53,916 nucleotides of DNA from Candidatus Woesearchaeota archaeon (GCA_016180195.1 JACPBS010000012.1:1-53916), one strand, 5' to 3'; shown: positions 1 to 28,217, counted from the stretch's first letter. The notes: generated by a model not told the origin, from the sequence alone. Numbers and translations: made by a program.

Positions 1-2097
1 GATGGAACAGTTCCCGGGTTTCCGTTCACCATACTTTACAGGAACTCATCAGCCTTCTCAAGCTTGAGTGACGGCTCAACTGCAAGCTGCAACTTCTCAT
101 TATCGCCGGTGGAGGCAACAGCGATGGGCGTGAGCAGCCCGAGCTGCGAGCTGATAATAACTTATAATTACTCCAGCACCGAAACAGCAACATTCACAAA
201 AACAGCAGGTTTCTTCGGAGCGGCCTCAACAGGAACCGCGACAGATGCAATATCATCAACCTTCTCCACATCAAACCCGAACTCAGGCAACGACGAAGGA
301 ATAGCAACAGTAAAGAACGCTTACCTTTTCGCAGCGACCCCAAGCTCCTCTATTTCAGGGCCACTATTCAGGCAGAACGTGACAAACCACACACAAACAG
401 AAGACCAAACTCTGAACTTCTGGGAAACTGATAATGAGCATGCAAACCTTCTTTATGCAATATACAACACAACTACCAACCTGAGCAAACTCAAAACAAG
501 GCACAACATCACACTACAAACAGACACACCCTCACCAATGAGCGCAGTGCAATGGGTGACGTACAGCCACACAAAACCATCAGACCGATTAATGCCCACA
601 GTAAAGCTGTGGAACCCGGCAAGCAACACAAACACGACATCAAAAAACATGTCATTCAACTTTACTGCATATGACATAGGGGGCATTGGCAACGCAACCC
701 TGCTGATCAACCTGACCCGCAACAACTCGAACTACACTAACATAATCTCTGGACAAAACGCGTCAATAAACGTAACTGATATGCCTGAAGGGGTTTTCAA
801 CTGGAGCATAGAGGCATGCGACAAAGCAGGAAACTGCAACACCAGCACTGAAATATTCAACCTGACAGTTGATTATTCAGGTCCAAATTCAACAATCGTG
901 TTCCCCGGGAACAAGACAATAGTGGAAGGAAACACCGTTATCAACGCATCCGTGAATGATTCGGTCACAGGAACCAGGCTCGTAGAAATGCAGCTTTGGA
1001 ACATAACAGACAATGTCAGCGGGTGGATGCCCATGAACCTTAGCTTTGGGGACAAGCATACAGGATACTGGAACTATACAATAGATACCTCGGTGTTCCC
1101 TGATGGACACTACAACATAACACTAAATGCAACAGATTTCATGGAAAATAGCGCGATATATGCGAACCACAGCATAATAACGATAGATAACCCGAAACCA
1201 GACCTTTACATAAACTCATCGGAAATAAACATAACCGCCAACCTTATAGAAGGCCAGACTGTGCAGATAAACTCCACGCTCAAGAACCTGGGTGACGACA
1301 CTGCGTACAACATAAACGTCTCTTTTTACGAGAATGGCATCCTGGCAAAGAACTTCACCATAGAAAACCTATCCCCATCGCTTGAAACAACCCTAATCTA
1401 TAACTGGACAGCGGTAATAGGGAACTATAACATAACAATCGAGACAGACCCTCCCATAGCATCAAATGGCACCACAAACGAAACCAACGAAACCAACAAC
1501 ATTGCAAATTTTACCCTGTTTATTCCGGCATATGGTGTATATTACGGCCAGGCAATACTTAACATTCACCTTGGCACCTCTGAAAACGGCTGGCAAATAA
1601 GATGGCTTAATCAGACAAACTCCTCAGGAAACATATATGTCACAAGCACAGCCACCAGGAATTCCGTTAGCTGGCAAAATCTCCAGGCAATAGGAATAGC
1701 CAAGAACGGGGACAGGGCAACTGATGACTGGGAAGAGATGGATATGATGCTTAACATGAGTAACCTCACAGATTCAATAAACAGAACATACACTGTCCAG
1801 GGAGACCCCATAAACATAACCAGCTTCAACCTCTTTTCAAGCCCCATCCAGAATGTATCTGTTGCAAACAGCACGAACAGCAGCAATTTCCTAACAGGCA
1901 TACTATGGGACACGACTGATGCAGAGACCCAATACAACACAGGCGATGTGCCTGATCTGGTATTCGTAACATCAATAAACAGGAACAAGCAGGGAAAATA
2001 TGGAATATATGATTTTGAGCTCAAAGTCCCGGCAAACCTCAGGACGTACAGAAATGCCACCTTGGACTCGGTAGAATTCTACCTTGATCTAATATGA
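1..2097 (+). CDS. Secreted surface glycoprotein with Ig-like and CARDB-like modules (5' partial)
   Basis: The reading frame is open to the left edge, so the true start lies outside the window and any internal TTG or ATG start would be arbitrary. The visible product is rich in Asn, Thr and Ser, with very many N-x-S/T sequons, as expected of an N-glycosylated exported protein. Around residues 215-300 there is an Ig-like module with the signature NATL...EGVFNWSIEACDKAGNCN, which recurs many times in the giant protein at 14805. Around residues 400-500 a CARDB-like stretch follows (NLGDDTAYNINVSFYENG). The C-terminal 180 residues form an unrecognised beta-rich domain. No C-terminal membrane anchor is visible. 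Function is inferred as a cell-surface or adhesion protein. Confidence 0.85.
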   Translation, partial: DGTVPGFPFTILYRNSSAFSSLSDGSTASCNFSLSPVEATAMGVSSPSCELIITYNYSSTETATFTKTAGFFGAASTGTATDAISSTFSTSNPNSGNDEGIATVKNAYLFAATPSSSISGPLFRQNVTNHTQTEDQTLNFWETDNEHANLLYAIYNTTTNLSKLKTRHNITLQTDTPSPMSAVQWVTYSHTKPSDRLMPTVKLWNPASNTNTTSKNMSFNFTAYDIGGIGNATLLINLTRNNSNYTNIISGQNASINVTDMPEGVFNWSIEACDKAGNCNTSTEIFNLTVDYSGPNSTIVFPGNKTIVEGNTVINASVNDSVTGTRLVEMQLWNITDNVSGWMPMNLSFGDKHTGYWNYTIDTSVFPDGHYNITLNATDFMENSAIYANHSIITIDNPKPDLYINSSEINITANLIEGQTVQINSTLKNLGDDTAYNINVSFYENGILAKNFTIENLSPSLETTLIYNWTAVIGNYNITIETDPPIASNGTTNETNETNNIANFTLFIPAYGVYYGQAILNIHLGTSENGWQIRWLNQTNSSGNIYVTSTATRNSVSWQNLQAIGIAKNGDRATDDWEEMDMMLNMSNLTDSINRTYTVQGDPINITSFNLFSSPIQNVSVANSTNSSNFLTGILWDTTDAETQYNTGDVPDLVFVTSINRNKQGKYGIYDFELKVPANLRTYRNATLDSVEFYLDLI

Positions 2098-2118
2098 CGT
2101 CATTTTTTAATAATAACA

Positions 2119-2131
2119 AACTTTTATAAAT
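2119..2131 (+). promoter_or_regulatory. TATA-like box before the coiled-coil gene
   Basis: The run CTTTTATAAATGG sits about 40 bases before the TTG start at 2168. A purine-rich AAGGGGAG follows it and could act as a ribosome binding site. The only gene-free stretch here is short and follows the stop of the first surface gene. Confidence 0.5.
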
Positions 2132-2167
2132 GGGCTATCTTCAAAACCATTTAAGGGGAGTGGTAGA

Positions 2168-3019
2168 TTGGTAAAGCAACTGATAGAGCAGTTTCTGAAA
2201 AAAGAGGGGCAGAATAAGGAAAACAAGCAGCAACAAGTTCCTGACGAGTTGCCCCCCCTTTCTGAAGAGACAATAAGCCATAAAAAAACCGAAGCAGCGC
2301 CACAAGCCGTTCCTAATGAGCTTCCATCACTAAGCACGCAGCCTGAGCCTGTCAAGTCCGATGAAAAGAAGGAAATTCCTCTGGAGTTCCCAACAAAGCA
2401 AGCTCCTGAACCAGTGGAACAGCAATCAATGTCGTTCCCACAGCAAAAGGATGAGGATGTCCCAAGCTTCTTCTATGATCTGATGCAGATAATAAAAACC
2501 CCGGGCTCAATAGACAAAGTGCTTTCGCAGGACCTGCTGACAAGAATGAAGGAGAACTGGGATTCAAGGGAGAAAAACAGGGAACAGGGAAATTCCGGCG
2601 TTGAAACTGAATTCTCAAAGCGCATCAACGAGCTAAAATACCTTGAAAAGAAATGGAGTTCCCAGAAGATAATACTTGAGGAAGAGGAAAAAATACTGAA
2701 AGAACGGGAAAAAGACCTTGCTGCAAAAATAGTGGAATTCAAGAAATTCCTGCAGCGGGCAAAGCTTTACAAGCACGTACCGGAATCGAACTACTTGGTG
2801 CTTGAGAACTGCATGGTCATAAAAAACCTAAAGGACCTGTCCAATGCTCTCAGAGTAATTGATGAAAAGACGCTTAGAAAACACCTGGCAGGCAATGAGG
2901 TAATCAGTTGGGTAAGCCAAATTGACCCCAAACTTGCCTCAAAGCTGAAAACACTGAAAAACAAGAAAGACTTTGTTTCAGCAATACATCAATATGAGAA
3001 AAGGCTCGAAGGTAGCTAA
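2168..3019 (+). CDS. Cytoplasmic coiled-coil protein with a C-terminal DUF5752-like domain
   Basis: TTG start preceded by AAGGGGAGTGG. The product (283 residues) has a Pro/Glu/Gln-rich, probably disordered N-terminal 100 residues, a charged helical and probably coiled-coil segment at roughly 130-205, and a C-terminal domain of about 75 residues. That last domain aligns by eye with the separate small protein at 33400: both share an IVK/VIKNL start, a conserved His-Leu, a Trp-Val, a Leu-Ala run and an identical RLE near the end. I associate this domain with DUF5752 from memory. There is no signal peptide, unlike the neighbours on both sides. The role is unknown; it may be a cytosolic accessory of the surface locus. 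Confidence 0.75.
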   Translation: MVKQLIEQFLKKEGQNKENKQQQVPDELPPLSEETISHKKTEAAPQAVPNELPSLSTQPEPVKSDEKKEIPLEFPTKQAPEPVEQQSMSFPQQKDEDVPSFFYDLMQIIKTPGSIDKVLSQDLLTRMKENWDSREKNREQGNSGVETEFSKRINELKYLEKKWSSQKIILEEEEKILKEREKDLAAKIVEFKKFLQRAKLYKHVPESNYLVLENCMVIKNLKDLSNALRVIDEKTLRKHLAGNEVISWVSQIDPKLASKLKTLKNKKDFVSAIHQYEKRLEGS

Positions 3020-3020
3020 A

Positions 3021-3030
3021 AATTTAAATA
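3021..3030 (+). promoter_or_regulatory. TATA-like box, probable leaderless start for the first surface paralogue
   Basis: AATTTAAATA lies about 27 bases before the ATG at 3053. This is the spacing at which archaeal transcription would begin at or next to the start codon. Confidence 0.5.
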
Positions 3031-3052
3031 ACAGTCAAGGAAAAAAAGTAAA

Positions 3053-3832
3053 ATGGGCAAAGGGCCGGGCAAGCTTTTTTTTCACATTATAATATTAGTT
3101 CTTCTTGTAGGTCTTGCAATAGCTGCGGAAAAAAATGTCCCGACAGGACCAGAAACTCTAAGCGTGGGCAACTCAACGAGATATACAGGTGGGATGAATG
3201 GAACGCTGATCAGGGCTGAAGCAGGAAACGTAACCAGCCTGATCATCTCTGAAACCATAGTAACGAAAGCATGGGCAGGCTACTATGGGAACGTAACAGG
3301 AACAATAGTATTGAATGACGGCCTTAACAACACATTATATAATTGGCAGTTGGCAAGCCCAACAGGGGAGATATATGCTTCAAATGGAAGCGATGTGAGC
3401 TGGAGCCTGATAAAGTGCGTAAACTTCACAGGCAACATGACAGGGATATCTGAGCTGTACGAGCCTTTCAACCTCACCACCCTGGAGAGATTCTTTGGGA
3501 TTAATGACACGGACAAAGACGGCATAAATGAAACATTCAACGATACATTTAACGGAAACGGACTGATGGTTGGGGAGATGCTAATAAACCAGTCCCAGAA
3601 ATGCCCGATGCTCTACACTTTCATGGATGGAGCATACCAGACAGTGAGCTTCAAAGAGGTCCTTTTGCATGACAACAAGAGCATCATCTTTACTGCGCTC
3701 CTCAATGACAGCGTTGACGGGTTCAAAGACGATAATGAGCAGATGGATTTCCAGATGCTGGTTGCGGAAGACGGCCATATTGGAAAAGAGGCAACGCTGA
3801 CAAACTATTATTTCTATGTAGAGCTAGCTTAA
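3053..3832 (+). CDS. Secreted surface protein, paralogue 1 of a five-member family
   Basis: A 259-residue protein with an N-terminal signal peptide (about 25 residues ending near IAAEK). The mature part begins VPTGPETLSVGNST. Family marks in order are AGYYGNVTGTI, NNTLYNW, GEIYASNGSDVSWS, IKCVNFTGN, KEVLLHDNKSIIF, DFQMLVAEDG and a terminus of the form YYFYVELA. There are many N-x-S/T sequons and no membrane anchor. It is nearly the same as the proteins at 4131 and 5099, and more distantly related to those at 6072 and 8279. I do not recognise a named family. The fixed C-terminal aromatic-VEL ending suggests that the very end of the chain matters, perhaps for assembly; that is inference. Confidence 0.85.
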   Translation: MGKGPGKLFFHIIILVLLVGLAIAAEKNVPTGPETLSVGNSTRYTGGMNGTLIRAEAGNVTSLIISETIVTKAWAGYYGNVTGTIVLNDGLNNTLYNWQLASPTGEIYASNGSDVSWSLIKCVNFTGNMTGISELYEPFNLTTLERFFGINDTDKDGINETFNDTFNGNGLMVGEMLINQSQKCPMLYTFMDGAYQTVSFKEVLLHDNKSIIFTALLNDSVDGFKDDNEQMDFQMLVAEDGHIGKEATLTNYYFYVELA

Positions 3833-3880
3833 CCACTTACTATGTAAGAATCCTTTTTCTTAAAAAAAGAAAGGTTTAAA

Positions 3881-3892
3881 TACTAGTATACT
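3881..3892 (+). promoter_or_regulatory. TATA-like box before the first Sm-like gene
   Basis: GGTTTAAATACT lies about 35 bases before the ATG at 3924. It follows a T-run and A-run (3851-3879) that could form a weak terminator for the preceding gene. This suggests a new transcript starts with the small Sm-like gene rather than with the surface gene behind it. Confidence 0.45.
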
Positions 3893-3923
3893 GAAAAGTA
3901 TATTAATATCGAAAGTAGTGTAA

Positions 3924-4127
3924 ATGTTGATATTTGAAAAAATGAGATTGTTTGATGAGTTTGTTGGAGAAGAAGTAAAGGTCCCCTACCGTGATGGGGT
4001 GCAGTTCAAGATTGCCAGGGGTGTCCTTGAAAGCACTGATTCTGGCTTTGTTAAGATAAAAGGCAAGCTCGGGACAATCATAATAAATGAAAAAAACATC
4101 GAGAAAATGTCAAGGGTGGTGAGGTAA
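3924..4127 (+). CDS. Small Sm-like (LSm/Hfq-like) protein, copy 1
   Basis: A 67-residue cytosolic protein without a signal peptide. The core is KVPYRDG, then ARGVLESTDSGFVKIKGKLG, then TIIINEKNIEKM. The order strand, DG turn, GVLES-D-GFV-IKG, GTI-I-NI matches the general layout of Sm-fold proteins; this is a judgement from pattern, not a search result. It is very similar to the copy at 5879. It ends three bases before the ATG of the surface paralogue at 4131, so the two are almost certainly co-translated. RNA binding and control of the neighbouring surface mRNAs is a reasonable but untested idea. A start at the internal ATG (3942) is possible. Confidence 0.75.
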   Translation: MLIFEKMRLFDEFVGEEVKVPYRDGVQFKIARGVLESTDSGFVKIKGKLGTIIINEKNIEKMSRVVR

Positions 4128-4130
4128 AAA

Positions 4131-4913
4131 ATGGTGAAAAACAGCTTCTCAAGATTGATAGTGTACATGCTTGCATTGCTGGCGCTGGTCTTGTCGGTTT
4201 TTGCAGCACAGAACTCGGTTCCCACAGGTCCGGATACATTCCAAGTGGGGAACAGCACTTATTACACAGGTGGGCTTAACGGCACGTACATACAAGCTGA
4301 GGCAGGAAACATCACCAACCTCGTTGTAGCAGAACTGACAGCCACCAGGTCATGGGCAGGCTACTATGGAAACGTTACCGGTACAATAGTATTGAATGAC
4401 GGGCTCAACAACACCCTATACAACTGGCAGCTAACCAGTCCTAATGGTGAAATATATGCATCTAATGGAAGCGATGTGAGCTGGAGCCTGATAAAATGCG
4501 TAAACTATACAGGCAACATGACAGGTCTTGCGGATTTATACGAGCCTTTTAATCTTACCTCCCTTGAAAGGTTCTTTGGGATTAACGAAACGAACCAAGA
4601 CGGGATAAATGAAACCTTCAACGACACATTCAACGGAAACGGACTTATGGTAGGACAGGAGCCAATCAACCAGTCCCAGAAATGCCCGATGCTCTATACA
4701 TTTGTTGACGAAGCGTACCAGACGGTGAGCTTCAAGGAAGTGCTTCTGCACGACAATAAGAGCATTATCTTTGCATCAATACTAAATGACAGCCTGGACG
4801 GATTCAAAGCAGATGATGAGCCGATGGATTTCCAGATGCTGGTTGCAGAGGATGGGCACGTAGGAGCAGAAGCGACCCTTACCCCCTATTATTTTTTCGT
4901 AGAGCTGGCCTAA
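4131..4913 (+). CDS. Secreted surface protein, paralogue 2
   Basis: A 260-residue member of the same family as the protein at 3053, with a signal peptide of about 26 residues (hydrophobic LALVLSVFAAQ) and the mature start VPTGPDTFQVGNST. All family marks are present (AGYYGNVTG, NNTLYNW, GEIYASNGSDVSWS, KEVLLHDNKS, DFQMLVAEDG, YYFFVELA). It directly follows the Sm-like gene. The near identity of long internal stretches with the copies at 3053 and 5099 points to recent tandem duplication or ongoing gene conversion, while the signal peptides differ. Confidence 0.85.
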   Translation: MVKNSFSRLIVYMLALLALVLSVFAAQNSVPTGPDTFQVGNSTYYTGGLNGTYIQAEAGNITNLVVAELTATRSWAGYYGNVTGTIVLNDGLNNTLYNWQLTSPNGEIYASNGSDVSWSLIKCVNYTGNMTGLADLYEPFNLTSLERFFGINETNQDGINETFNDTFNGNGLMVGQEPINQSQKCPMLYTFVDEAYQTVSFKEVLLHDNKSIIFASILNDSLDGFKADDEPMDFQMLVAEDGHVGAEATLTPYYFFVELA

Positions 4914-4929
4914 AGCCGGCTTTCTATGA

Positions 4930-5095
4930 TTTGCGAAAAAGAGCAAGCGTAAGCGTAAGAGAAATGAGATCGCCAGCGAAATGAAGTGGCAAAACCACTA
5001 AGCGTAAGCGAACCACAGCGAAAACGAAGTGAATAGCGCAATGAAAAGGGAAAAGCAAGAAGAAAGCGTCTGAAAGCGCAAAAGCAAGGTGATCG
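4930..5095 (+). repeat. Degenerate AGCG-based low-complexity repeat
   Basis: This spacer between paralogues 2 and 3 is purine-rich and built around AGCG units, for example AAGCGTAAGCGTAAG, AGCGAAATGAAGTGG, AAGCGTAAGCGAACCAC, AGCGAAAACGAAGTG and AGCGCAATGAAAA. A small hairpin, GTGG and CCAC around CAAAA, lies at 4985-4998. No convincing coding frame is seen on either strand. It ends in AAGGTGATC, a good ribosome binding site for the gene at 5099. The origin is unclear; tandem expansion or a recombination substrate for the duplicated genes are possibilities. Confidence 0.6.
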
Positions 5096-5098
5096 GAA

Positions 5099-5866
5099 AT
5101 GAAAAAGCTAGTGGTTTTGTTACTGATAAGTGTATTTGTAATGGTGATGAACATGAAACAATTGAGCGCAGTCCCAACAGGACCGGAAACGTTAAGCGTG
5201 GGAAACTCGACATTCTATACAGGCGGATTAAACGGAACATACACCCAGGCACAAGCAGGAAACGTGACCTCCCTTATTATAAATGAGCCAACAGCCACAA
5301 AATCATGGGCAGGCTACTATGGAAATGTAACTGGCACAATAATACTGAGCGATGGCCTGAACAACACCTTATACAACTGGCAGCTGACAAGCCCTAATGG
5401 TGAGATATACGCGTCAAATGGAAGCGATGTGAGCTGGAGCTTGATAAAGTGCGTAAACTTCACAGGCAACATGACAGGGATATCTGAGCTGTACGAGCCT
5501 TTCAACCTCACCACACTTGAAAGGTTCTTCGGAATAAACGATACGGACAAGGACGGGGTCAATGAGACATTCAATGATACCTTCAATGAGAATGGATTAA
5601 TGGTGGGACAGGAGCCAATCAACCAGTCCCAGAAATGCCCAATGCTCTACACATATGTGGATGAAGCTTACCAGACGGTGAGCTTCAAGGAAGTGCTGCT
5701 GCACGACAACAAGAGCATCATATTTGCCTCAATCCTTAATGACAGCATTGACGGGTTCAAAGCAGATGATGAGCCGATGGATTTCCAGATGCTGGTTGCA
5801 GAGGACGGGCACGCGGGCCAGGAGTCCACACTTACGAACTATTATTTTTTCGTGGAGCTGGCATGA
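5099..5866 (+). CDS. Secreted surface protein, paralogue 3
   Basis: A 255-residue family member with GGTGATC eight bases before the ATG. The signal peptide is short (LVVLLLISVFVMVMNMKQLSA), and the mature start VPTGPETLSVGNST matches paralogue 1. The central part (IKCVNFTGNMTGISELYEP) is the same as in paralogue 1 and the last third is closer to paralogue 2, as expected from gene conversion between the copies. It ends YYFFVELA and is followed after 12 bases by the second Sm-like gene. Confidence 0.85.
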   Translation: MKKLVVLLLISVFVMVMNMKQLSAVPTGPETLSVGNSTFYTGGLNGTYTQAQAGNVTSLIINEPTATKSWAGYYGNVTGTIILSDGLNNTLYNWQLTSPNGEIYASNGSDVSWSLIKCVNFTGNMTGISELYEPFNLTTLERFFGINDTDKDGVNETFNDTFNENGLMVGQEPINQSQKCPMLYTYVDEAYQTVSFKEVLLHDNKSIIFASILNDSIDGFKADDEPMDFQMLVAEDGHAGQESTLTNYYFFVELA

Positions 5867-5878
5867 GGGTGAGAAAAA

Positions 5879-6085
5879 ATGATTAAGAATAGCAGTGTCT
5901 TTGACGAGTTTTTGGGATCTGACGTAAAAGTGCCTTATCGGGATGGAACCCAGTTCAAGGTAGCGAGAGGGGTCCTGGAAAGCATAGACTCGGGTTTTGT
6001 GAAGATAAAAGGCAGGCTGGGCACGATAATAATCAACGAGAAAAACATAGAAAAGATGTCCAAAACGCAAAATGAGAACTACTGA
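5879..6085 (+). CDS. Small Sm-like (LSm/Hfq-like) protein, copy 2
   Basis: A 68-residue protein preceded by GGGTGAG. The core KVPYRDGTQFKVARGVLES, DSGFVKIKGRLG, TIIINEKNIEKM differs from copy 1 at only a few positions. The N-terminal ten residues and the C-terminal tail are the main differences. Its last 14 bases overlap the start of the surface paralogue at 6072, so translation is probably coupled. The alternating order surface, Sm-like, surface, surface, Sm-like, surface makes chance adjacency unlikely. Confidence 0.75.
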   Translation: MIKNSSVFDEFLGSDVKVPYRDGTQFKVARGVLESIDSGFVKIKGRLGTIIINEKNIEKMSKTQNENY

Positions 6086-6839
6086 AAAAGCAGTAATTGG
6101 CCTGATCGTGGCCTTTATCCTGGCTGCGGCAATATCGAACGCAGAGCCCTTTGGGGCAACAATATCATATATGGATAATTCATCAAAAGGCTCAACAAAC
6201 GGAACAGTATCAAATTATACAGGAGGAGGAACGCAGGCAGGAGGATATATCTATTACACAAACATCAGCGGCATCCAGCAGGACTTAAGATGGAAAGGCT
6301 ATGTGGGAAATGTTTCAGGAAGGCTAACCCTTGATGACGCCTCATCCAACACACTATATGACTGGACAATCCTTGGCTCACCAACCGGGGAAGTTTATGC
6401 AACAAGACAATCAGGATTAATCAACTGGTCGAACATCAAATGCGCATACAGGAACGTGACAGAGGCAGAAAACCTGAGGATGAACCATTCAAGCTCAACC
6501 GACAATATAACAACAACGTTCACTGCATCCACAAACAAGGCATTCACTGTGGGAACAGTTTCAATTGCAGCGGACACCTGCAATACAACCAACATATATG
6601 TAAATGATTCTTCTCCGGCAGGGGACACGTTTGAGGAAGTACTCCTGTATGATGGCCCATCAGAGCAGCTAATGAACGAATCAAATACAACAAAGAACAT
6701 TCTATATGCTTCAATAATAGAACAGGATGTTTCAGGGTTTGACGGCAGAACCTATGATTTCCAGATGATATTGCCTGAAAACGGGCTGAGCGCATGGACA
6801 AGCTCAACAGCATACTACTTTTTCATTGAACTGACATGA
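6072..6839 (+). CDS. Secreted surface protein, paralogue 4 (diverged)
   Basis: A 255-residue protein with a signal peptide (AVIGLIVAFILAAAISNAEP). It keeps the family frame in altered form: WKGYVGNVSG, SNTLYDW, TGEVYATR, INWSNIKC, FEEVLLYDG, GFDGRTYDFQMI and the end YYFFIELT. The block is closer to the protein at 8279 than to the three tandem copies. It overlaps the second Sm-like gene and is followed eight bases later by the gene at 6847. A sequon-rich extracellular location is expected. Confidence 0.85.
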   Translation: MRTTEKAVIGLIVAFILAAAISNAEPFGATISYMDNSSKGSTNGTVSNYTGGGTQAGGYIYYTNISGIQQDLRWKGYVGNVSGRLTLDDASSNTLYDWTILGSPTGEVYATRQSGLINWSNIKCAYRNVTEAENLRMNHSSSTDNITTTFTASTNKAFTVGTVSIAADTCNTTNIYVNDSSPAGDTFEEVLLYDGPSEQLMNESNTTKNILYASIIEQDVSGFDGRTYDFQMILPENGLSAWTSSTAYYFFIELT

Positions 6840-6846
6840 GGATGAA

Positions 6847-7833
6847 ATGAGGATAAAGAAGGGAACAATGAGGAATCTTGGAATACTGGCCTTCGCTGTG
6901 GTTGCCCTAATAGCATTCACTTTCATAGGGATAATAACCATAAGCCCTGATGTAGCCAGCCTGCCAAATGGAACCATGATTACTTTTGTGAACGTAACGA
7001 ACACCGAGCCTACGGTAACTGACATTGTCATAAAGCCAGATTCACCAGTAACCCTAAGCCCGGGAAACATAACAACAATAACATGCAACGCGACTGTGCA
7101 TGACTGGAACGGCTATACTGACATAAGGGCCATAAACGGCACACTCTTCTTCAGCGAAGGCGGCTTTACTATAAACAGCGATGAAGACAACAACTCACAT
7201 TATACAAACTCATCATGCGGTTCATGCACGCAGTTTGATGCCAACCCCACCAACGCATCATGCACATGCGCTTTCGCAGTCCAATATTATGCATCAAACG
7301 GAACCTGGTCATGCAATGTTACCATAAAGGACATAGGAGGATTCCTCCCGACCGAAACACCCCTGAACTTCACAGCATCAGGACAAGGGACTGTAAACAT
7401 AAGCGCGCTCATCGCCATAGACACACCAAGCACACTTAACTTCGGAAACCTTACGGTCTCACAGACATCAACAGCAAAACAGGTTAACATCACCAATCTA
7501 GGGAACAGGGATGTGAACATATCATTATATGGCTATGGAGGGGATAACGAGACTGAACAGGTAAACATGTCGATGGTCTGCCCATATGGCGGAAACATAA
7601 CAATACTGAATGAAAGGTACAGCTTTGAAAACTCGCCCAATTTTGATGCCATGTTCACGTTCAACACCTCGGCCAGAAGCACAAACATAACGCTTGCCAA
7701 GGTAACTGCCCAGGAACCACTTGACCAAAACAATCGGTCCAATATGACAAACTGGAAACTGAAGATCCCGTATAGTGTAGGCGGTTATTGCAATGGAACA
7801 ATAGTTTTCATTGCATCCGACGCTCTCTACTAG
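6847..7833 (+). CDS. Membrane-anchored surface protein related to the C-terminal half of the protein at 26460
   Basis: A 328-residue protein with one N-terminal hydrophobic segment (LGILAFAVVALIAFTFIGII), likely a signal anchor. Residues 50-170 form a Cys-containing Ig-like region (ITCNATVHDWNGY, SSCGSCTQ, CTCAFAVQYYAS, WSCNVTI). Residues 185-328 contain LNFGNLTVSQTS, VNITNLGNRDVNISLYGYGGD and IPYSVGGYCNGTIVFIAS. The same blocks in the same order form the C-terminal half of the 585-residue protein at 26460. The last block, GG-C-GTIVFIAS, is the C-terminus of both. No enzymatic motif is seen. Confidence 0.82.
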   Translation: MRIKKGTMRNLGILAFAVVALIAFTFIGIITISPDVASLPNGTMITFVNVTNTEPTVTDIVIKPDSPVTLSPGNITTITCNATVHDWNGYTDIRAINGTLFFSEGGFTINSDEDNNSHYTNSSCGSCTQFDANPTNASCTCAFAVQYYASNGTWSCNVTIKDIGGFLPTETPLNFTASGQGTVNISALIAIDTPSTLNFGNLTVSQTSTAKQVNITNLGNRDVNISLYGYGGDNETEQVNMSMVCPYGGNITILNERYSFENSPNFDAMFTFNTSARSTNITLAKVTAQEPLDQNNRSNMTNWKLKIPYSVGGYCNGTIVFIASDALY

Positions 7834-7845
7834 TTTATTTTTTTT
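7833..7845 (+). terminator. T-run after the gene at 6847
   Basis: A T-rich run directly follows the stop codon. Poly-T tracts alone can end archaeal transcripts, so the helix-turn-helix gene at 7873 may have its own transcript. Confidence 0.35.
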
Positions 7846-7872
7846 TGGAATCCAAAAGCTTACATAATAAGT

Positions 7873-8292
7873 ATGAACGAAAACGAAAGCGCGAGAGAGA
7901 TTGAACAGCATTTCCCAGTCAGCATATTCTTCAATGAAAAGCTAAGCGCACTTGAGACAATAACCAAGTTTCTGAAAGAGGAAAAAAACCTCAAGTACTC
8001 GAGCATAGCAAAAATCCTTAACAGGAACGAGCGCACGATATGGTGCACATATGCGAAGGCAAAGACAAAGATGGCTGAAAGGCTGGAAAGCACACTCCAC
8101 GACATAAGCATACCCGCATCAAGAATCAGCAAAAGGGAGCTGAGCATTCTGGAAACAATTACTGAATACCTCAAGGACGAATCAAACCTGAGCTTCGGAA
8201 AAATAGCATCCATCATGAGAAGGGATTACAGGACAATATGGACAGTATACAGCAGGGCAAAAAAAAAGAGGAGGCTCCATGTCAACAATTAG
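7873..8292 (+). CDS. Tandem helix-turn-helix DNA-binding protein
   Basis: A 139-residue protein made of two copies of one helix-turn-helix unit, at about residues 24-70 and 88-134. Each has L-LETIT-(F/Y)LK-E-NL, then (S/G)-IA-I, then R-(E/Y)RTIW-(T)Y-(A/R)AK. The second half of each unit (RTIW and following) would be the recognition helix. There is no signal peptide or sensor domain. It is the only DNA-binding protein inside the first surface cluster, and its last 14 bases overlap the start of the surface gene at 8279. A role as transcription factor for the surface genes is inferred. Confidence 0.78.
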   Translation: MNENESAREIEQHFPVSIFFNEKLSALETITKFLKEEKNLKYSSIAKILNRNERTIWCTYAKAKTKMAERLESTLHDISIPASRISKRELSILETITEYLKDESNLSFGKIASIMRRDYRTIWTVYSRAKKKRRLHVNN

Positions 8293-8998
8293 GCTGATAA
8301 TGGCGCTGGCAATAATCATATCAATGTCATCAGCGGCACTTGCAATGGAGCCAACAGGCCCTGTGATAACCCAGGTGAGAAACGAAACTGCAATACAGCC
8401 AGGATCAACAATACTCAATACAACTGGCGGATCAATAAGCACCATAGACATAAACGGAACCCAGCAGAACCTGAGATGGAAGGGATATGTGGGAAACGTA
8501 TCAGGAAAACTTACACTAGATGACGCAAACAACAACACGATCTTCGACTGGTCAATCGGAGCTGCATCCGGGGAAGTATTTGCAACAAGAAATCCTGGTT
8601 CGGTAAACTGGTCAGGGATAAACTGCTCAAATTCAACCCACCTGTCAACAGAGGACATAAACATGAACCACACAAACCCAAGCGACAATATAACCAGGAC
8701 ATTCAGCCAGACATCGCATTCGGAGATGTATGTGAGCACAAACCTCATCAGGCAAAACAGCTGCTATTCACTTAAAACTTACGTGAATGACGCGCCTCAA
8801 AGCTCGGTGTTCGAGGAAATAGTGCTTTACGACGGAACAAACCTGACCAATGGAAACACCGTATATGCAACAAAGCTTGAGCAGGACTCAGCAGGGTTTG
8901 ATGGAAGAACATATGATTTCCAGATGATAGTTCCCGAAATAGGCGCGCCATCCTGGCGAAGCTCAACTGCATATTACTTTTACGTGGAGATCACATAA
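8279..8998 (+). CDS. Secreted surface protein, paralogue 5 (diverged)
   Basis: A 239-residue protein with a signal peptide (LIMALAIIISMSSAALAMEP) and mature start PTGPVITQVRNET. Family marks are WKGYVGNVSGKLTLDDA, NNTIFDW, GEVFATRNPGSVNWS, FEEIVLYDGTNL, GFDGRTYDFQMIVPE and the end YYFYVEIT. It is closest to the protein at 6072. The start lies inside the end of the tandem helix-turn-helix gene, and the next gene begins one base after the stop. Secreted and glycosylated like its paralogues; no anchor. Confidence 0.85.
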   Translation: MSTIRLIMALAIIISMSSAALAMEPTGPVITQVRNETAIQPGSTILNTTGGSISTIDINGTQQNLRWKGYVGNVSGKLTLDDANNNTIFDWSIGAASGEVFATRNPGSVNWSGINCSNSTHLSTEDINMNHTNPSDNITRTFSQTSHSEMYVSTNLIRQNSCYSLKTYVNDAPQSSVFEEIVLYDGTNLTNGNTVYATKLEQDSAGFDGRTYDFQMIVPEIGAPSWRSSTAYYFYVEIT

Positions 8999-8999
8999 G

Positions 9000-9656
9000 A
9001 TGGATAAAAGAATAGTGGTGATCATAATCGGAATTATTGCGATAGCAGCCCTGCTAGCTGTAAAGCCCCCAATTACAGGAAGGTCAACAATGGCCACCTC
9101 AGTCATGGTCACCGGCGCCATGTACAGCCATGAGTGCAGCATTCAAATCAGCAATGGATGGAACCTGATAACAATCCCATGCATACAGGAAAATTCAAGC
9201 ATAGAAAACTTCTCCAAGACAGCAGCAGGAAAATACAGGTCAATACACTATTACAACTCAAGCTCACCTGACAAATGGAAGGCATACAACCCTGAACTGC
9301 CCGAATGGGTGGTGCAGGACCTCAAGTCAACAGGGGCATTGCAGGGCTATTATGTAAATGCAACAGCCGATTCCACCATAAGGGTTAACGGGACAATAAT
9401 GACATACCAGTCTGTCAGGCTGCTTAAAGGATGGAACCTCATCGCATACCCGACCAACACCACCCTTAACCTGGCAACTGCGTTCAGCACAATACAGGGA
9501 AAATACGCTGTTGTATACATGCTGAACTCCTCAACTAAAATATATCATGCATATTATCCTGATGGATCAAACAACACGATATCATTAACTCAGCCCTACA
9601 AGGGTTACTGGATAAACATGACAGAGGAAACTACATGGAACGTAGCGGAAAACTAA
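9000..9656 (+). CDS. Secreted protein with two GWN-type repeat modules
   Basis: A 218-residue protein with an N-terminal hydrophobic segment (VVIIIGIIAIAALLAV). The exported part has two repeats, each starting GWNLI(T/A)(I/Y)P, followed by a YY or Y-rich strand and ending G-YY-N or G-YWIN. The same modules close the giant protein at 14805 (GWNFISIP, GKGYWVE, GWNMVSWH, SRGYYID). This type of repeat is often seen near the ends of archaeal and bacterial surface proteins, but I know of no established biochemical function. It overlaps the next reading frame by 22 bases. Confidence 0.8.
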   Translation: MDKRIVVIIIGIIAIAALLAVKPPITGRSTMATSVMVTGAMYSHECSIQISNGWNLITIPCIQENSSIENFSKTAAGKYRSIHYYNSSSPDKWKAYNPELPEWVVQDLKSTGALQGYYVNATADSTIRVNGTIMTYQSVRLLKGWNLIAYPTNTTLNLATAFSTIQGKYAVVYMLNSSTKIYHAYYPDGSNNTISLTQPYKGYWINMTEETTWNVAEN

Positions 9657-9766
9657 CACTGGCAATAATAATCCTGCTTGCAGTGATTCATCAGGCAGCT
9701 GCAATGCCGCCTGTAGCATCAGAATTCTATGGGACACTAGGGATATTATGGTCTCTTGTCATGTGA
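9635..9766 (+). pseudogene. Detached N-terminal piece (signal peptide) of the surface gene at 9756
   Basis: This 43-codon frame begins inside the previous gene and encodes a signal peptide (LTLAIIILLAVIHQAAAMPP) followed by VASEFYGTL. It then leaves the frame and stops at 9764. The continuing frame, read one base on from 9741, gives GYYGLLSCDGDDSETPD. In related archaeal surface proteins that I recall, an FYG strand at the domain start and a GYYGLL strand belong to one domain, separated by some 25-30 residues. Here they abut with a one-base shift, so an internal deletion with frameshift is likely. The short repeat GGGA occurs at 9731 and 9740. A sequencing or assembly error is the main alternative. 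Confidence 0.6.
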
Positions 9767-11768
9767 CGGGGATGATTCAGAAACCCCGGACAATGAAGGA
9801 GGGCGCGAGGGACAGAAAATAGTGTTCAGGGTGAACAATACAAACTCCAAATACCGCGGAAATGCCAGCTGGAAACAGGGGATGTTCACGATGATAAACA
9901 TCACCTCCCCGAACCACCAGCCCTCGCTCTCACAAATCGGGCAAAGAACAGCAACAGTAGGCTCAATCTTCGAGCTTCAGCCAACGGCCACAGACCAGGA
10001 CAACGACACACTCAGATACAGCCTAAACACAACAGAGTTCTACGTCAACAGCGACTCGGGAGTAATGAACTTCACACCTGTTGCATCGCAAATCGGGAAC
10101 CACTCGCTTAACATGACCGCAAGCGACGGTTTCCTTGAAGCGCATGAAGTATTCATGCTGAAAGTCGTGCCCGCCCCATTCTGCGGCGACAGCCTGTGCT
10201 ACACCGAAAACTGCCTTACCTGTCCGACTGACTGCGGCTCATGCCCTGTGCAGCCAGGAAGCGGGTCCGGCCAGGGCCAGGGCAGCGGCGGGGGTGGACA
10301 GGGAATGGGCACAGGGTCAGGGTCACTGTCCTCGTCTTCCAGGGGAACCTCAACTTCAGGAGGGGCAGGGCAGCAAGACTCTTCCGGATCAGGCTCAGGC
10401 TCTGCAACCACATCAAGATCAACAGGATACTCATGCATTGAAAACTGGGCATGCACAGAATGGTCCGAGTGCCGCGAAGGCCAGCAAAGCAGGATATGCA
10501 ATGACAAAAACGTTTGCCCCCTGACAAGGAACAAGCCAATTGAAAAACAGGCATGCAAAAAGGAAAAGGCAACATGCAGCGACGGAATAATGAACGGGGA
10601 TGAAACAGAAATTGATTGCGGGGGATCCTGCAACCCATGCGCAACCCGAAAGTACGCGGAAGCCCCGCCAATGACCGCAGTCAAACAGATAATTGAAGCG
10701 GGGATCAGGGCATCAAAGCAGCTGCCCTGGATATTCATCTCAGTAATATCAGCAATCAGCATAGCCTCGCTCGCTGCTGAAAAAGTCTACGTGAAACGGA
10801 TAATGATGAAAGGGTTCGACGAATACAACAAAAGCCTGAAAAGATACAAGGCTTTCAAGAGAAAGACCTACAAGTTCCTCATAAACCTCATCGTAATATC
10901 CGCGATGCTTACAACCTACCTTTTTTATTTCAGCGACTGCAGCGGCTGCATCCTAAAATACTCATACATAATAGCGTCGCTCATCATGATCACCCCGGCC
11001 ATGGTGTCATTTGCAATATCCAAATACCAGTATTCTGAAGTGGCGAAGGCAAAAAGCGCATCAAGGCTGATATTCATCCATGAGATGCAGCTTAGGAAGC
11101 TCATACGGATAGAAAACCACATCCTCCTTGACATGGAAGACAAGGCATGCGCTTCAATAGATGAAGCACGGTCGGATCCCGGGATATCAGAAAACCTAAA
11201 AGAAGCCCTTGACAAGGTATCAGAATCAGTAAAGAGCATGAGGAGCCTCCATGCAGAAAAAACAATTGATGAAATGCCCAAGGAAATAGCTGATCAAAGC
11301 AGGCAGATGGCAGGCAAGCTGAAGGACCTTTCACAATCATATGCAGAATTCGATAATGTACTGAAAAGCATAACAGGTCTTGCAAAACAGTTCAAATCAC
11401 CAGAGGACTTCTACTACGCATGCGCTGACATGAAGGACAGCATGGAAAAAATAGCCACAGACAAGTACCTCATAGAGATACTGCAGGCAGATCCGGGAAA
11501 TGTGAAGATATACAACAGCCTTGTTGACATATACGAGTTCTGCAACAGGACTGTCTTTGCCTTCTCTGAGGAAGACAGGAAGGAGATTGCCAAGGAAAAC
11601 GAGCTAATGAACATGATAGAGAAGCTCCTCATGTCAAAGCCCCTCCTGGCAGTGCTGGAGACAAAGGATAGCGTTGCAAAGGTGCACAACAGGCTTGTGG
11701 ACATACACGACCACTACAAGAAAAAGCAGTCCGTATACGAGGAAGTGAGGGCTGGACAAAGAAACTAG
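9756..11768 (+). CDS. Multidomain membrane surface protein with cytoplasmic coiled coil (N-terminus broken)
   Basis: The frame is open from 9741, but the first start codon is a weak TTG at 9756 without a ribosome binding site. Domain order is as follows: remnant of an N-terminal beta domain (CDGDDSETPD), a cadherin-like stretch at about 55-135 (DQDNDTLRYSLN), a Cys cluster (CGDSLCYTENC), a Gly/Ser linker at about 165-220, a thrombospondin-1-like stretch (CIENWACTEWSEC), a second Cys motif (CSDGIMNGDETEIDCGG), hydrophobic segments near 325 and 370-425, and a helical cytosolic tail of about 240 residues. Such a layout would link outside contacts to the cytoplasm. Without the signal peptide at 9635 the protein could not be exported normally. 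Confidence 0.75.
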   Translation: MSCDGDDSETPDNEGGREGQKIVFRVNNTNSKYRGNASWKQGMFTMINITSPNHQPSLSQIGQRTATVGSIFELQPTATDQDNDTLRYSLNTTEFYVNSDSGVMNFTPVASQIGNHSLNMTASDGFLEAHEVFMLKVVPAPFCGDSLCYTENCLTCPTDCGSCPVQPGSGSGQGQGSGGGGQGMGTGSGSLSSSSRGTSTSGGAGQQDSSGSGSGSATTSRSTGYSCIENWACTEWSECREGQQSRICNDKNVCPLTRNKPIEKQACKKEKATCSDGIMNGDETEIDCGGSCNPCATRKYAEAPPMTAVKQIIEAGIRASKQLPWIFISVISAISIASLAAEKVYVKRIMMKGFDEYNKSLKRYKAFKRKTYKFLINLIVISAMLTTYLFYFSDCSGCILKYSYIIASLIMITPAMVSFAISKYQYSEVAKAKSASRLIFIHEMQLRKLIRIENHILLDMEDKACASIDEARSDPGISENLKEALDKVSESVKSMRSLHAEKTIDEMPKEIADQSRQMAGKLKDLSQSYAEFDNVLKSITGLAKQFKSPEDFYYACADMKDSMEKIATDKYLIEILQADPGNVKIYNSLVDIYEFCNRTVFAFSEEDRKEIAKENELMNMIEKLLMSKPLLAVLETKDSVAKVHNRLVDIHDHYKKKQSVYEEVRAGQRN

Positions 11769-14827: not shown

Positions 14828-17800
14828 GCAATTCAGCCTTCTGATGCTGATAACTGTAATAATCACGCCCACGACCTTATTGGCTGACCGGGGGATATCA
14901 ATAGCCACGTCCATTGACAGCCCAAGCAAGAACACCGCAAGAATATCAATAACAGGCACTGGAATGAACTTGACAGAGTCCTGCGTGACCTGGGAAATAG
15001 AAAAAAAGGACACGACAGGCACAATATGCCATGGCTCACATAAGTGCTGTGCAGAGATAGGGCTAAAGGCCGAGGCTTCAAACCCGTTAGCCGGGATAAT
15101 GGTATATTCGGACCAAGAGGAGGAATACACCATCAAGGCAAGGGCATTTGACAGAAATGCGTCCAGCGAAGAAAAAACAACAAGCCTAAAGATCGGAAAC
15201 AAAAAAATCCCCCTTTTCGGCAAAGCCACTGTACTCGACCAGATAAAATCCTTCTTTACAGATGAAAAAACAGGGTCTGAAAGTATCAGAAAAAACTTCA
15301 AGGCAGATGAAAACCCGAGATTTGAATACAGATTCCCGGCTGAAAAAGGGATCCTGGACGCAGGCAAAAAACCCGAAAAAGGAAAAGTCACAGTACAAAT
15401 ATTCAATTCAACAGGACAGCAAACAGGCATATCGGCAGAAGCGGCCGAAAATTCTGACGGAACATACAACATTACAATCCACAAGCCAAGGTCATACAGG
15501 CCAGGATCATACCGGATAAAGATTGAATACTATTACGGCGGCAAGACAAACATCCAAGAACAAAACTTCACATGGGGGGTTCTCGCAATCAACACCGACA
15601 AAGCCACCTACAACGAAAAAGAAACAGCCTTCATATCGATGGCGGTACTTGACGATTCAGGAAGGATAGAATGCAACGCCGAACTAAAGCTGGCCATAAC
15701 AAGCCCTGAAGGAAAAAAACAAACGCTTGACACGAAAAACGGGATAAAGGTATCCCCAGAATGTGAATTCCTAGGAGTGACCCAGATGCCTGACTATTAC
15801 GCATATTACAACACAACAATTCCAGGAACGTACAACATTGAACTTATCGCGAATACAAAAAACGGCCAGAGATCACTGAACCAAAGCTTTAACGCGGGGA
15901 ATCCGGAATATGACATAACAAGAAAAGCAGCGACAAGGATATACCCTGCTGCAAAATATACAACCGAACTCATAATAAAAACAGCAAAAGAAGCCATAGG
16001 CGAGGTCCAGGAAACAGTTCCAAGAGAATTTGAAATAACACCCGCCCAGGGAATGAGCATTTCCACAACGGCTGAAGAAAGAATCATCACCTGGAACATT
16101 ACAGAAAGAGAAACAACATTAAGATATGAATATGATGCTCCCGACATTTCACCCTACCTCTATCAGGCAGGGCCGCTTAAAATAAACGGATTTACCGAAG
16201 CAAGGACATGGATGATAGCCTCAGATTCGGTAGGCAAGATAGGGTCAGCATCGCAGGGATATGTTTTGTTCATCAATGGAACATCGAACACAACACCATT
16301 CCTAAAGCACTTCAACGGATCAGAATTCCCGTTCACCACAGAAACTCTTCAGACAATTGACGAAGGAATAAAATGGGCTGTGATAAGGTCATCACCAGTA
16401 AGGGATGAGCGGATAATAGTCGTGTCAGACAACGGATCAGACATAAATGCGATAGTGTGCAACCCAAACTGCGGATCCCCGATGGAACTGACAACGGCAA
16501 TGACAAACGTGGAAAGAAGGGGATTTGATGTTGCATATGAACAGGTAAGCGGCGACGCAATGATAGTGTTCTCAGACACCACAGCAATACCCAAATACAT
16601 AAAATGGGACGGAACATCATGGGGGGCATCGCAGCCCTTACAGACAGACACATGTACAGGGAACAACCAATGGGCAGTGCTGGCAGCAAAGCCAGGAAGC
16701 AACGAGATAATAGCAGGGCTTGCAGACGGACAAAGCGACCTGTGCATACAGGCATGGAACGGGACAGAATGGATAAACCACACAAAGATAGATCCTAACC
16801 TAGAGACACTTGCCGCACAGGCATACGACATAGCCTATGAAACATCGACTGGAAATGCAATGATAATCTTCGCGGAAGCAACAACATCAGGCCCTGTATA
16901 CAACATATGGAACGGAACCGGCCTCCAGTACACAACAAACCAAAACGCACCATCAACAGATGCACCGTCAATCAACAACATGAAGCTTGCAGCAGACCCA
17001 GGCAGCAACAGGATACTTTATGGGGGAACGGACACAGGGCAGGACGACCTCAACATCCTCCAGTGGAACGGCACCCACTGGGGCAGCAGAACAGGCGGAA
17101 CTGACTATGATGGCTCAATCGGGACAGTCAGCTCCCCAAGGACGTTTGATGTCTCATTTATTGGTGATACAGGAAGAGGAGCTATATTCTACAGGGATGG
17201 AAGCGACAACTTTCCAAATTACGGCGTATGCAACACAGAATCGGACTGCCAGGCAGGAACATGGAGCGCAGCAGGAACAGCATGCCCAAGCTCAGCAGAC
17301 ACAGGATCAATAATGAACTGGGTAAGCACAGCAACCTCATATCTTCTCAACGAGCTCATGATAATAACCATATCAACACCATCAACCACAACAGGACAGG
17401 AAAACATATACGCGCACAGGTTTGACGGCACAAGCTGCCAATCCACCCACCTAGGAAACGCGACATCAGTAACAACAGAAAACGCAATGTTCACATACAA
17501 CAACAACCCCGCCCAAAACCCGCCATACTACCTCAGGATGCTAAAAATTTTATGGGACATAACAGACGCAAACGAAAACACAAACCTGACGTTAAGCCCC
17601 ACAAGCCCCCCATCAAAGATAACTGAGGCAAACGTGCCGGTAAGCCTCACAGCAGGCACATGGAGCAGCCAAACCTGTTTTTACCTGCACCCAAGACTAA
17701 ACAACACCATGTTCGGAATTGGAAACGCAAACCTTACATTATGGCTTAGGGCGGGAACAGCATCAATACAAAGCATAAACTTCACAATAGCAGAAGTATA

Positions 17801-26017: not shown

Positions 26018-26463
26018 GAACATCAAAGGCAATCGCATTTATCCTGATCCTGGCAATGCTAACAACAGCAGCCTCCGCATCATACAGAATATACGGGAAA
26101 GCATCCTACAACTCAGCACCCCTCCCAGACATTGCCGTCACTGCCCTGAATACGCAGACAGAATACCTTAACAAAACGGCAACCGGAGCTGACGGGCATT
26201 ATTCAATGCAAATTACGGCTTCTGAAGGGGATACGATACTGATCAGAAGCTACAACACCACAATACTTGCAAGGGCAGGAAATGGCGATATAAGGGCGGA
26301 TATAAGGCTACCAAGGAATGGGGCGACAGGAATGGTGGTATTCAGTCAATCATATGACATTCCAATAACCAGGACAGGCATTCTGCTTTCAACACTGGCT
26401 GTAATTGGAATTGCGACAACAGTATTCTTCATAAAGGCAGGGCAAATCAAGAGAAAAAGATGA
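26014..26463 (+). CDS. Small membrane protein with one carboxypeptidase-regulatory-like domain
   Basis: A 149-residue protein: signal peptide (AIAFILILAMLTTAASA), one beta domain at about 24-105 (YRIYGKASYNSAPLPDIAVT, GADGHYSMQITASEGDTILI), then a C-terminal hydrophobic helix (GILLSTLAVIGIATTVFFI) and a basic end KRKR. The beta domain is the same type as those at the starts of the proteins at 24902 and 26460, so three consecutive genes carry it. ATGA overlaps link it to both neighbours. Confidence 0.8.
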   Translation: MRTSKAIAFILILAMLTTAASASYRIYGKASYNSAPLPDIAVTALNTQTEYLNKTATGADGHYSMQITASEGDTILIRSYNTTILARAGNGDIRADIRLPRNGATGMVVFSQSYDIPITRTGILLSTLAVIGIATTVFFIKAGQIKRKR

Positions 26464-28217
26464 GAGCTGGAAAAATAGCGCTTATGGCAGCATGCCTGGT
26501 TGCCCTCATCATAATCACCCCAATCACACTCACAGTTCCTCCCGGAGCGCATAACGTAAAAGGCACAGTGTACACGAGAAACGATGCACAGGCGCCCACA
26601 GGGATTCCAGTGCTCATAAACAACACAATAAACAACCAGTCCGTGCTAACCTACACAAACGGCCCCCCGCCAAAACCCGGAGCATATTCATCTACCATAA
26701 ACGGAACCGACGGAGACCTGATAGAAGTAACGTCCTGGAACATCACCCATTACGGGCTTAACAGATCCCAGCTAACTTCGACAACAACAGAATTACTGGC
26801 AATACTCAACACAAGCAAGAAGGAAACAAACCTCACCATCAACATGACAAACAATGCAACAGTAAACGCAGGCAACACATTCAATTTCACTGTAAACATA
26901 ACCATGATAGGAGTAGAAGATGGGACTGGATGCTCTGTGACCATAGGCATAAACACATCCCTAATTATCTTCACAGGCCCGGACACAAGCACGCGCAGCC
27001 TTGGAAACATACCTGCAGGCTCATTTGCATCCACTGCATGGAACCTGACTGCATTTGCGTCAGGATCCACGAACATCACCGCAAACTCAAGCTGCAACTC
27101 AGACTACCGGAATTTTGACAACGCAAACTCGAAGACAGCATACAACATAACGGTAATAGGCAGCGTGCTTCCACAAATAACCCTTGAAGCGCCAGAAAAC
27201 ATGACTAGGAAAAAAAACAACCACACCATATTCAGCTACAATGTCACGTACCAAAACTCCATAGAGAACTGCTCGCTCATAATTGATGACGCAATAAACC
27301 AGACAAATGATTCCATATCGAGAAACGCATCACAAAACTTCACGGCAGACCTTCCCATTGGCCTGTATAACTGGAGCGTAAGCTGCACGGACAGCATCAA
27401 CAAAGTGAACGGAAGCTCGGTAAAATACATAATCAACATCACAGGAAACTTCGCACCGGCGGTTTCGCAGGTTTATGCAGCGACTCCAATAGACCTCACC
27501 GCAGGCTCCACGAAGGAAATAGAATGCAATGCAACAGTCCTTGATTCAAACCTAGATGATCTGGTGCATGCAAACGCCACATTTTACGACTCAAGCTCCA
27601 CATACGGCTCGCCTGACAGCAACACCAGCCACTACTCAAATGCGAGCTGCCTTAACATATCCACGAATGGGGAAATGCACAATTTCACATGCAAGGCAAA
27701 CTTCCTGTACTATGCCTCAAATGACACATGGAAATGCAACATAACCGCAACAGACAATGAAAACATGACATCCACAGCATATGCGAACATGAGCATCAAC
27801 CAGCTTATAGCGATAGAAACCACGTCATCAACAGTTGACTTCGGAAACATAACAGTAACACAGGTATCGCAGATGCAGACAATAAACGTAACGAACCTTG
27901 GAAACATACCTGTAAACCTTTCCCTATTCGGATATGGAGGGGACAACCAGACAATATATGAGAACTATTCTCAATGGTGCCCCCATGGATTCATAGACCT
28001 CGATTTTGAAAGGTTCAGCAAGGAAGAATCAACGCCATACATCCAGATGCACAACCTAACAACGCTGCCAAAAGACTCCAACCTGACCATACAAAAAGTG
28101 ATAGACCCTTCCAATATAACAAACACGACGGGAACAACCTACTGGAGAATAAAGATACCTGCAGGAATAGGAGGAAGATGCAACGGCACGATAGTGTTCA
28201 TTGCGTCAGCAGCATGA
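26460..28217 (+). CDS. Secreted Ig-like surface protein, paralogous in its C-terminal half to the protein at 6847
   Basis: A 585-residue protein. A signal peptide (ALMACLVALIIITPITLTVP) precedes a carboxypeptidase-regulatory-like domain (VKGTVYTRNDAQAPTGIPVL, GAYSSTINGTDGDLIEVTSW), a NEW3-like or CARDB-like region, an Ig-like module (IENCSLIIDDAINQ, GLYNWSVSCTD), and a C-terminal half of about 260 residues. The last part has IECNATV, WKCNITATD, VDFGNITVTQVSQ, INVTNLGNIPVNLSLFGYGG and the terminal GGRCNGTIVFIAS. These match the protein at 6847 block by block. No membrane anchor follows. Both ends overlap their neighbours by ATGA. Confidence 0.83.
   Translation: MRAGKIALMAACLVALIIITPITLTVPPGAHNVKGTVYTRNDAQAPTGIPVLINNTINNQSVLTYTNGPPPKPGAYSSTINGTDGDLIEVTSWNITHYGLNRSQLTSTTTELLAILNTSKKETNLTINMTNNATVNAGNTFNFTVNITMIGVEDGTGCSVTIGINTSLIIFTGPDTSTRSLGNIPAGSFASTAWNLTAFASGSTNITANSSCNSDYRNFDNANSKTAYNITVIGSVLPQITLEAPENMTRKKNNHTIFSYNVTYQNSIENCSLIIDDAINQTNDSISRNASQNFTADLPIGLYNWSVSCTDSINKVNGSSVKYIINITGNFAPAVSQVYAATPIDLTAGSTKEIECNATVLDSNLDDLVHANATFYDSSSTYGSPDSNTSHYSNASCLNISTNGEMHNFTCKANFLYYASNDTWKCNITATDNENMTSTAYANMSINQLIAIETTSSTVDFGNITVTQVSQMQTINVTNLGNIPVNLSLFGYGGDNQTIYENYSQWCPHGFIDLDFERFSKEESTPYIQMHNLTTLPKDSNLTIQKVIDPSNITNTTGTTYWRIKIPAGIGGRCNGTIVFIASAA

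Follow-up and report, generated by a model that had tools for sequence, protein, structure and literature searches.

Five related genes for small secreted proteins lie close together in the genome of a Candidatus Woesearchaeota archaeon, and the question they raise is what such an array is for. The window, meaning the whole stretch of 53,916 nucleotides analysed here (GCA_016180195.1 JACPBS010000012.1:1-53916), runs from base 1 of contig C19 of a 1.23 Mb genome in 25 contigs. The five ORFs, all on the + strand, lie where the original prediction had placed them and encode proteins of 239–260 aa. Three of them, 3053..3832 (259 aa), 4131..4913 (260 aa) and 5099..5866 (255 aa), are copies A, B and C of one clade-I subtype, as judged from ORF, alignment and tree position. 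The fourth, 6072..6839 (255 aa), belongs by alignment, tree and gene order to a subtype found directly before an Ig-like partner, and the fifth, 8279..8998 (239 aa), is assigned by tree, gene order and an AlphaFold2 model to a subtype coupled to a helix-turn-helix (HTH) gene. A five-way alignment with ∼50 invariant columns established that all five are homologous, and the motifs on which a single family had been proposed are present. Identity to the first copy (3053) ranges from 32% to 79%. With 5099 as the query, a search of the genome recovered the divergent copies at E = 6e-18 and 1e-25 and revealed no stand-alone members besides these five. The gap before 5099 (4914–5098) lacks a conserved ORF and has, on the + strand, many repeats of the motifs AAGCGTAAGCG / GCGAAA.

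The earlier description of the proteins as secreted, unanchored and dense in sequons is borne out. The N termini of all five are signal-like and hydrophobic, and a later hydrophobic segment is absent; as read from the sequence, the hydrophobic stretch occupies the extreme end only and gives way to A-x-A-like sites and a polar beginning rich in P, G and T. Each mature protein contains 11–15 sequons, compared with 3.5–5.0 in composition shuffles (p ≤ 0.002), and an STT3 oligosaccharyltransferase gene occurs in the same genome. The proteins are acidic (net charge −9 to −19), with two cysteines each, and this conserved pair is probably disulfide-bonded. Neither a class III signal peptide nor the retained hydrophobic helix of type IV pilins and archaellins was seen in the sequences, and the model of the mature 8279 protein has no N-terminal helix.

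The array is not a set of equivalent copies. A tree of 146 members, from a quick IQ-TREE search with SH-aLRT support only, groups 3053, 4131 and 5099 in one major clade, apart from 6072 and 8279, which share another. In other genomes the closest relatives of 6072 all have the partner gene directly downstream, and those of 8279 all have an HTH gene upstream. Over this tree the trait of an upstream HTH gene changes 8 times, compared with 22 in shuffles (minimum 18), and that of a downstream partner 14 times, compared with 28 (minimum 21), the minima being taken over 200 shuffles. Partner-linked members are not monophyletic, falling in the first major clade in some lineages. The subtype clades and the trait counts therefore indicate a set of old specialised types, the first of which is amplified here, a structure that the original prediction had overlooked. 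The three clade-I copies had been regarded as nearly the same, but their DNA identity is just 73%–76% and synonymous sites are saturated (dS 1.3–2.2). Saturated dS together with a dN of 0.14–0.16 shows that the copies are old and under purifying selection, and leads us to reject a recent tandem duplication accompanied by strong conversion. Variation is greater in their signal peptides and immediately after them than in the core. Of the proposed conversion mosaics, one stands: a tract of copy A that recurs in copy C (3415..3475, + strand, with its counterpart in 5099), a run of 7 sites with a permutation p of 0.007, is the sole significant signal, whereas the AB and BC runs are not significant (p = 0.65 and 0.43), and a dominant role of conversion is not supported.

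The surroundings of the family are also ordered. Profiles of the family and of the genes around it were run against the ORFs of 57 loci; these loci were picked for holding the family, so co-occurrence is inflated and the counts describe the family neighbourhood, not the exclusivity of the neighbours. The recurrent order is a large Ig/CARDB protein ending in a family module, a coiled-coil protein, family members, the Ig-like partner, an HTH gene, a further member, a GWNLI protein and a membrane protein. It is kept across divergent genomes and is present in full in the window, from 1 to 11768, on the + strand. The large Ig/CARDB surface protein (1..2097; Pfam, profile scan) is truncated by the contig start, and its C terminus (about 1525–2049) is a divergent family core that had also been missed. 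Between it and the array lies a conserved, intracellular, coiled-coil-like protein without a signal peptide (2168..3019; profile scan). Downstream of the array are two conserved neighbours identified by profile scan, a secreted protein with GWNLI repeats (9000..9656) and a membrane protein with an Ig-like extracellular part (9756..11768), the latter a possible anchor.

The secreted partner (6847..7833; 328 aa, 23 sequons) was assigned by model, sequon count and gene order. Partner genes have a family member directly upstream on the same strand in every case bar one split gene. The model predicts two Ig-like beta sandwiches (pLDDT 84, pTM 0.73) and weakly resembles the CFA/I tip adhesin complex, FimC-FimH and RbmA (E 4e-6 to 8e-5, TM only 0.2–0.4), a predicted likeness to two-domain fimbrial and biofilm proteins that is at the level of the Ig-like fold and is not evidence of homology. 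A sequence search found that the C-terminal part (about 27384–28205) of a 585-aa protein at 26460..28217 (+ strand) is homologous to the partner. A 3379-aa Ig-domain protein (14781–24920) lies on the same strand within a run of surface-protein genes of ∼30 kb that extends up to 30423. In other genomes a conserved membrane protein of 550–600 aa with a C-terminal zinc ribbon, and with a weak cell-wall-binding-like Pfam match below cut-off, is often near the family (L042:5981-7696, L047:13450-15213, L075:4620-6356 and other loci); it also occurs at L076, on contig C16 of the genome studied here.

Individual members are coupled to small genes. A double HTH protein with a sigma-70 region 4-like HTH (7873..8292, + strand; Pfam, gene order) shares its last 14 nt with the start of the 8279 gene. 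At family loci, 28 of 28 HTH genes overlap the start of the next gene, by 4–97 nt when longest-ORF starts are used; that gene is a family member in 24 cases and module-bearing in 2 more. Two previously unlisted genes, absent from the original prediction, were recognised by codon-position pattern and conservation, both on the + strand: one of up to 67 aa (3924..4127) ends 3 nt before the 4131 gene, and one of 68 aa (5879..6085) runs 14 nt into the 6072 gene. The gaps in which they lie share a 178-nt repeat whose substitutions are distributed 5/36/6 over the three codon positions, a pattern that marks the repeat as a small protein gene. The encoded protein of ∼65 aa, below the usual length cut-offs, reads VK(A/V)PYRDGxQFKxARGxLES...LGTIIINEKNIEKMS and is 44%–77% identical between genomes. 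Among 98 relatives, 8 have its gene; each of these carries the family, and no family-less genome searched has the gene. Most copies are directly upstream of a member, one neighbours an unrelated gene and another lies where a contig ends. In other lineages its position is occupied by an HTH protein labelled ArsR-like from our own reading of the protein sequence. Directly before 145 members there were 24 HTH, 22 ArsR-like and 10 ∼65-aa genes (56 in total), and most of the members lacking these three types follow another member. From their coupling and the HTH domains, all three gene types are likely to regulate their neighbours.

Two other readings of the small genes were discarded. Structured RNA in the gaps was rejected, as Rfam gave one chance match only and the conserved gaps are small protein genes; the pattern DG...G-L...GT-I-I had raised the suspicion that the ∼65-aa protein is Sm-like, but this found no support in Pfam or PDB searches, and the protein was left unnamed. 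The HTH gene is not dedicated to the family either. It is present in 58 of 98 genomes, many of which lack the family, and usually precedes other surface-type genes. Among 24 further cases sampled, at least 15 have the HTH gene abutting or overlapping a gene whose product has a strongly hydrophobic N-terminal segment; these neighbours are often large and rich in sequons. An HTH gene overlapping a surface-protein gene is thus a general arrangement beyond this locus; overlaps with other surface-type genes were observed at L105-L124, L126, L128 and L131, in genomes without the family or on other contigs.

The presence of three unrelated small gene types directly before members, the overlap of the HTH family with genes for large, sequon-rich, signal-bearing proteins in family-less genomes, and the variability of the signal peptides and adjoining region relative to the core could all be accommodated if the array were a set of alternative, switchable surface proteins, a system for host recognition or variation in which the coupled regulators choose the members displayed. 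We regard this as unlikely, albeit the best of the alternatives. The order of subtypes is kept across divergent genomes, the core is under strong purifying selection, unlike that of diversifying variant sets, gene conversion is scarce, and a repeat search found no long inverted repeats suggestive of an invertible segment.

The number of copies and their secretion had led to the proposal of a structural surface component, such as an S-layer or fibre subunit. A structural role does fit best, though not on account of copy number; it is favoured by the position-specific subtypes, the conserved order, the partner and the large proteins that share the module. Like archaeal S-layer glycoproteins, the proteins are secreted, acidic and dense in N-glycosylation sequons, with a proposed place in a surface coat. 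They are also multicopy, and their genes lie in linkage with those for a membrane protein and for large surface proteins with Ig domains. They differ from S-layer glycoproteins in their small size (about 240–260 aa), the absence of an anchor of their own, their several coupled subtypes and their patchy distribution. An S-layer serving as the sole cell wall would be expected to be near-universal in its clade, whereas a profile of the five found the family in 36 of 98 relatives, with 1–9 matches each, mostly in tandem, and at the phylum level in 46 of 193 sampled genomes, 44 of the 46 in the same taxonomic order. Codon adaptation, a proxy for abundance with ribosomal genes as its reference (family L14 was used; L2 gave no match), is 0.58–0.62 for the first four members and 0.68 for 8279, compared with 0.72 for ribosomal genes and 0.53 for a background that includes some spurious ORFs, which makes percentiles flattering. 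These moderate values do not single out the three clade-I copies as genes of very high expression and give no support for S-layer-like abundance. Since solved S-layer proteins also gave no sequence or fold match, it is improbable that the family provides the main subunits of a two-dimensional S-layer lattice.

Carriers are recorded as Candidatus Woesearchaeota, Nanoarchaeia, Nanoarchaeota, 'DPANN group' and two divergent Micrarchaeota; the family is thus a widespread multicopy DPANN family, mainly of Woesearchaeota. An array of several subunits is not needed in every case, since a genome can lack stand-alone members and have just one copy, fused into a larger protein (849 aa in L085). In relatives, members at L051:8707-10719 and L049:4246-5520 are fragmented or enlarged by inserts, which suggests decay or remodelling of some copies. 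A mobile or viral origin was also considered and rejected, as there were no relatives in IMG/VR (pattern scan), phages or plasmids.

The family has no name, as the original prediction had supposed. Pfam gave no match above cut-off for any of the five or for 59 aligned relatives, and neither did NCBIfam for the four members scanned; a PDB profile search with the family returned nothing significant, and literature searches found no published description. The mature 8279 protein, the sole member modelled, was predicted by AlphaFold2 from a 59-row alignment with a pLDDT of 87 and a pTM of 0.82. The model consists of four strands, a helical insert and four main strands, preceded by ∼44 almost strand-free N-terminal residues. 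Foldseek found no match to it in the PDB (best E = 1.7, probability 0.02) and no credible match among the viral structures of BFVD, so that no S-layer, pilin or other known fold was recognised. The family would therefore have a beta-rich predicted fold without a counterpart in the PDB, which the other four members should share by homology. A clear match to a known enzyme was looked for in Pfam, NCBIfam and the PDB, and none emerged; with invariant residues chiefly W, G, L, T and Y and few catalytic candidates, and with enzyme and carbohydrate-binding-module families and a PDB fold match all lacking, a role as secreted enzymes or carbohydrate binders that act on glycans of a host or of the environment is the least probable alternative, despite the secretion, the probable disulfide and a glycosyltransferase gene and a GH57 gene farther downstream.

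The family module recurs in large proteins, here in the 1..2097 ORF and, in divergent form, in a 1693-aa protein on contig C16 of the same genome. The median profile position at which the module starts is 77 in 21 large-protein C-terminal modules and 12 in 145 stand-alone members. The large-protein modules thus lack the N-terminal extension, and they begin near the first strand of the core. Insertion of an N-terminal strand into the next subunit would be compatible with, although not proven by, the ∼44 strand-free residues of the model and their absence from the large-protein modules. In donor-strand pili, FimH consists of a large N-terminal part and a C-terminal module without an N-terminal extension. 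The module-bearing large proteins resemble this tip adhesin in layout, and neighbouring large proteins hold the CARDB and Big domains of Ig-domain archaeal surface proteins while ending in the family module, which itself, unlike those domains, has no Pfam match and a predicted fold without a PDB match. The archaeal threads of Sulfolobus acidocaldarius (Saci_0406/0405) illustrate that sequon-dense, Sec-secreted subunits can form fibres (PMC9715654). As in threads and donor-strand fibres (TasA, chaperone-usher pili), the subunits studied here are small, beta-rich, anchorless and sequon-dense, have signal-like N termini and are encoded with accessory subunits. Unlike those systems, they comprise several subtypes, their array also includes an Ig-like partner and small genes coupled to members, and they match them neither in sequence nor, by Foldseek, in solved structure. 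The likeness to FimH and archaeal threads would thus be an analogy of layout, homology of fold having been sought and not found.

Taken together, the secretion signals, the sequons and STT3, the cysteine pair, the beta-rich fold, the subtypes, the conserved partner and the large proteins ending in the core module point to specialised subunits within a single N-glycosylated, extracellular assembly of several proteins at the surface of a woesearchaeal DPANN archaeon, a reading that we hold to be slightly more probable than not. As its form, we somewhat favour a fibre over a lattice. In such an assembly the small subunits would associate with each other and with the Ig-like partner, and the large Ig/CARDB proteins would join the same structure via the C-terminal module, as tip, base or anchor. 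Parts of the array may be separately expressed under the small coupled genes (the HTH, the ∼65-aa and, in relatives, the ArsR-like HTH gene), and such control could make the ratio or composition of subunits adjustable. A more specific version, a heteropolymeric archaeal surface fibre of a new class, in which subunits of a fold absent from the PDB are linked by their N-terminal extensions, giant Ig/CARDB proteins cap or anchor it via the extension-less core module and regulators precede individual subunit genes, is a speculative proposal and rather doubtful in its entirety.

The cell surface of Woesearchaeota, as of most DPANN archaea, is essentially uncharacterised, and all cultivated DPANN archaea live attached to hosts (PMC11291902). 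The locus offers a fold without a solved relative, and the rule that a small HTH gene overlaps a surface-protein gene extends to other surface proteins in the group. A conserved, ordered set of surface genes in over a third of the relatives searched provides concrete candidates for attachment or coat structure in these archaea.
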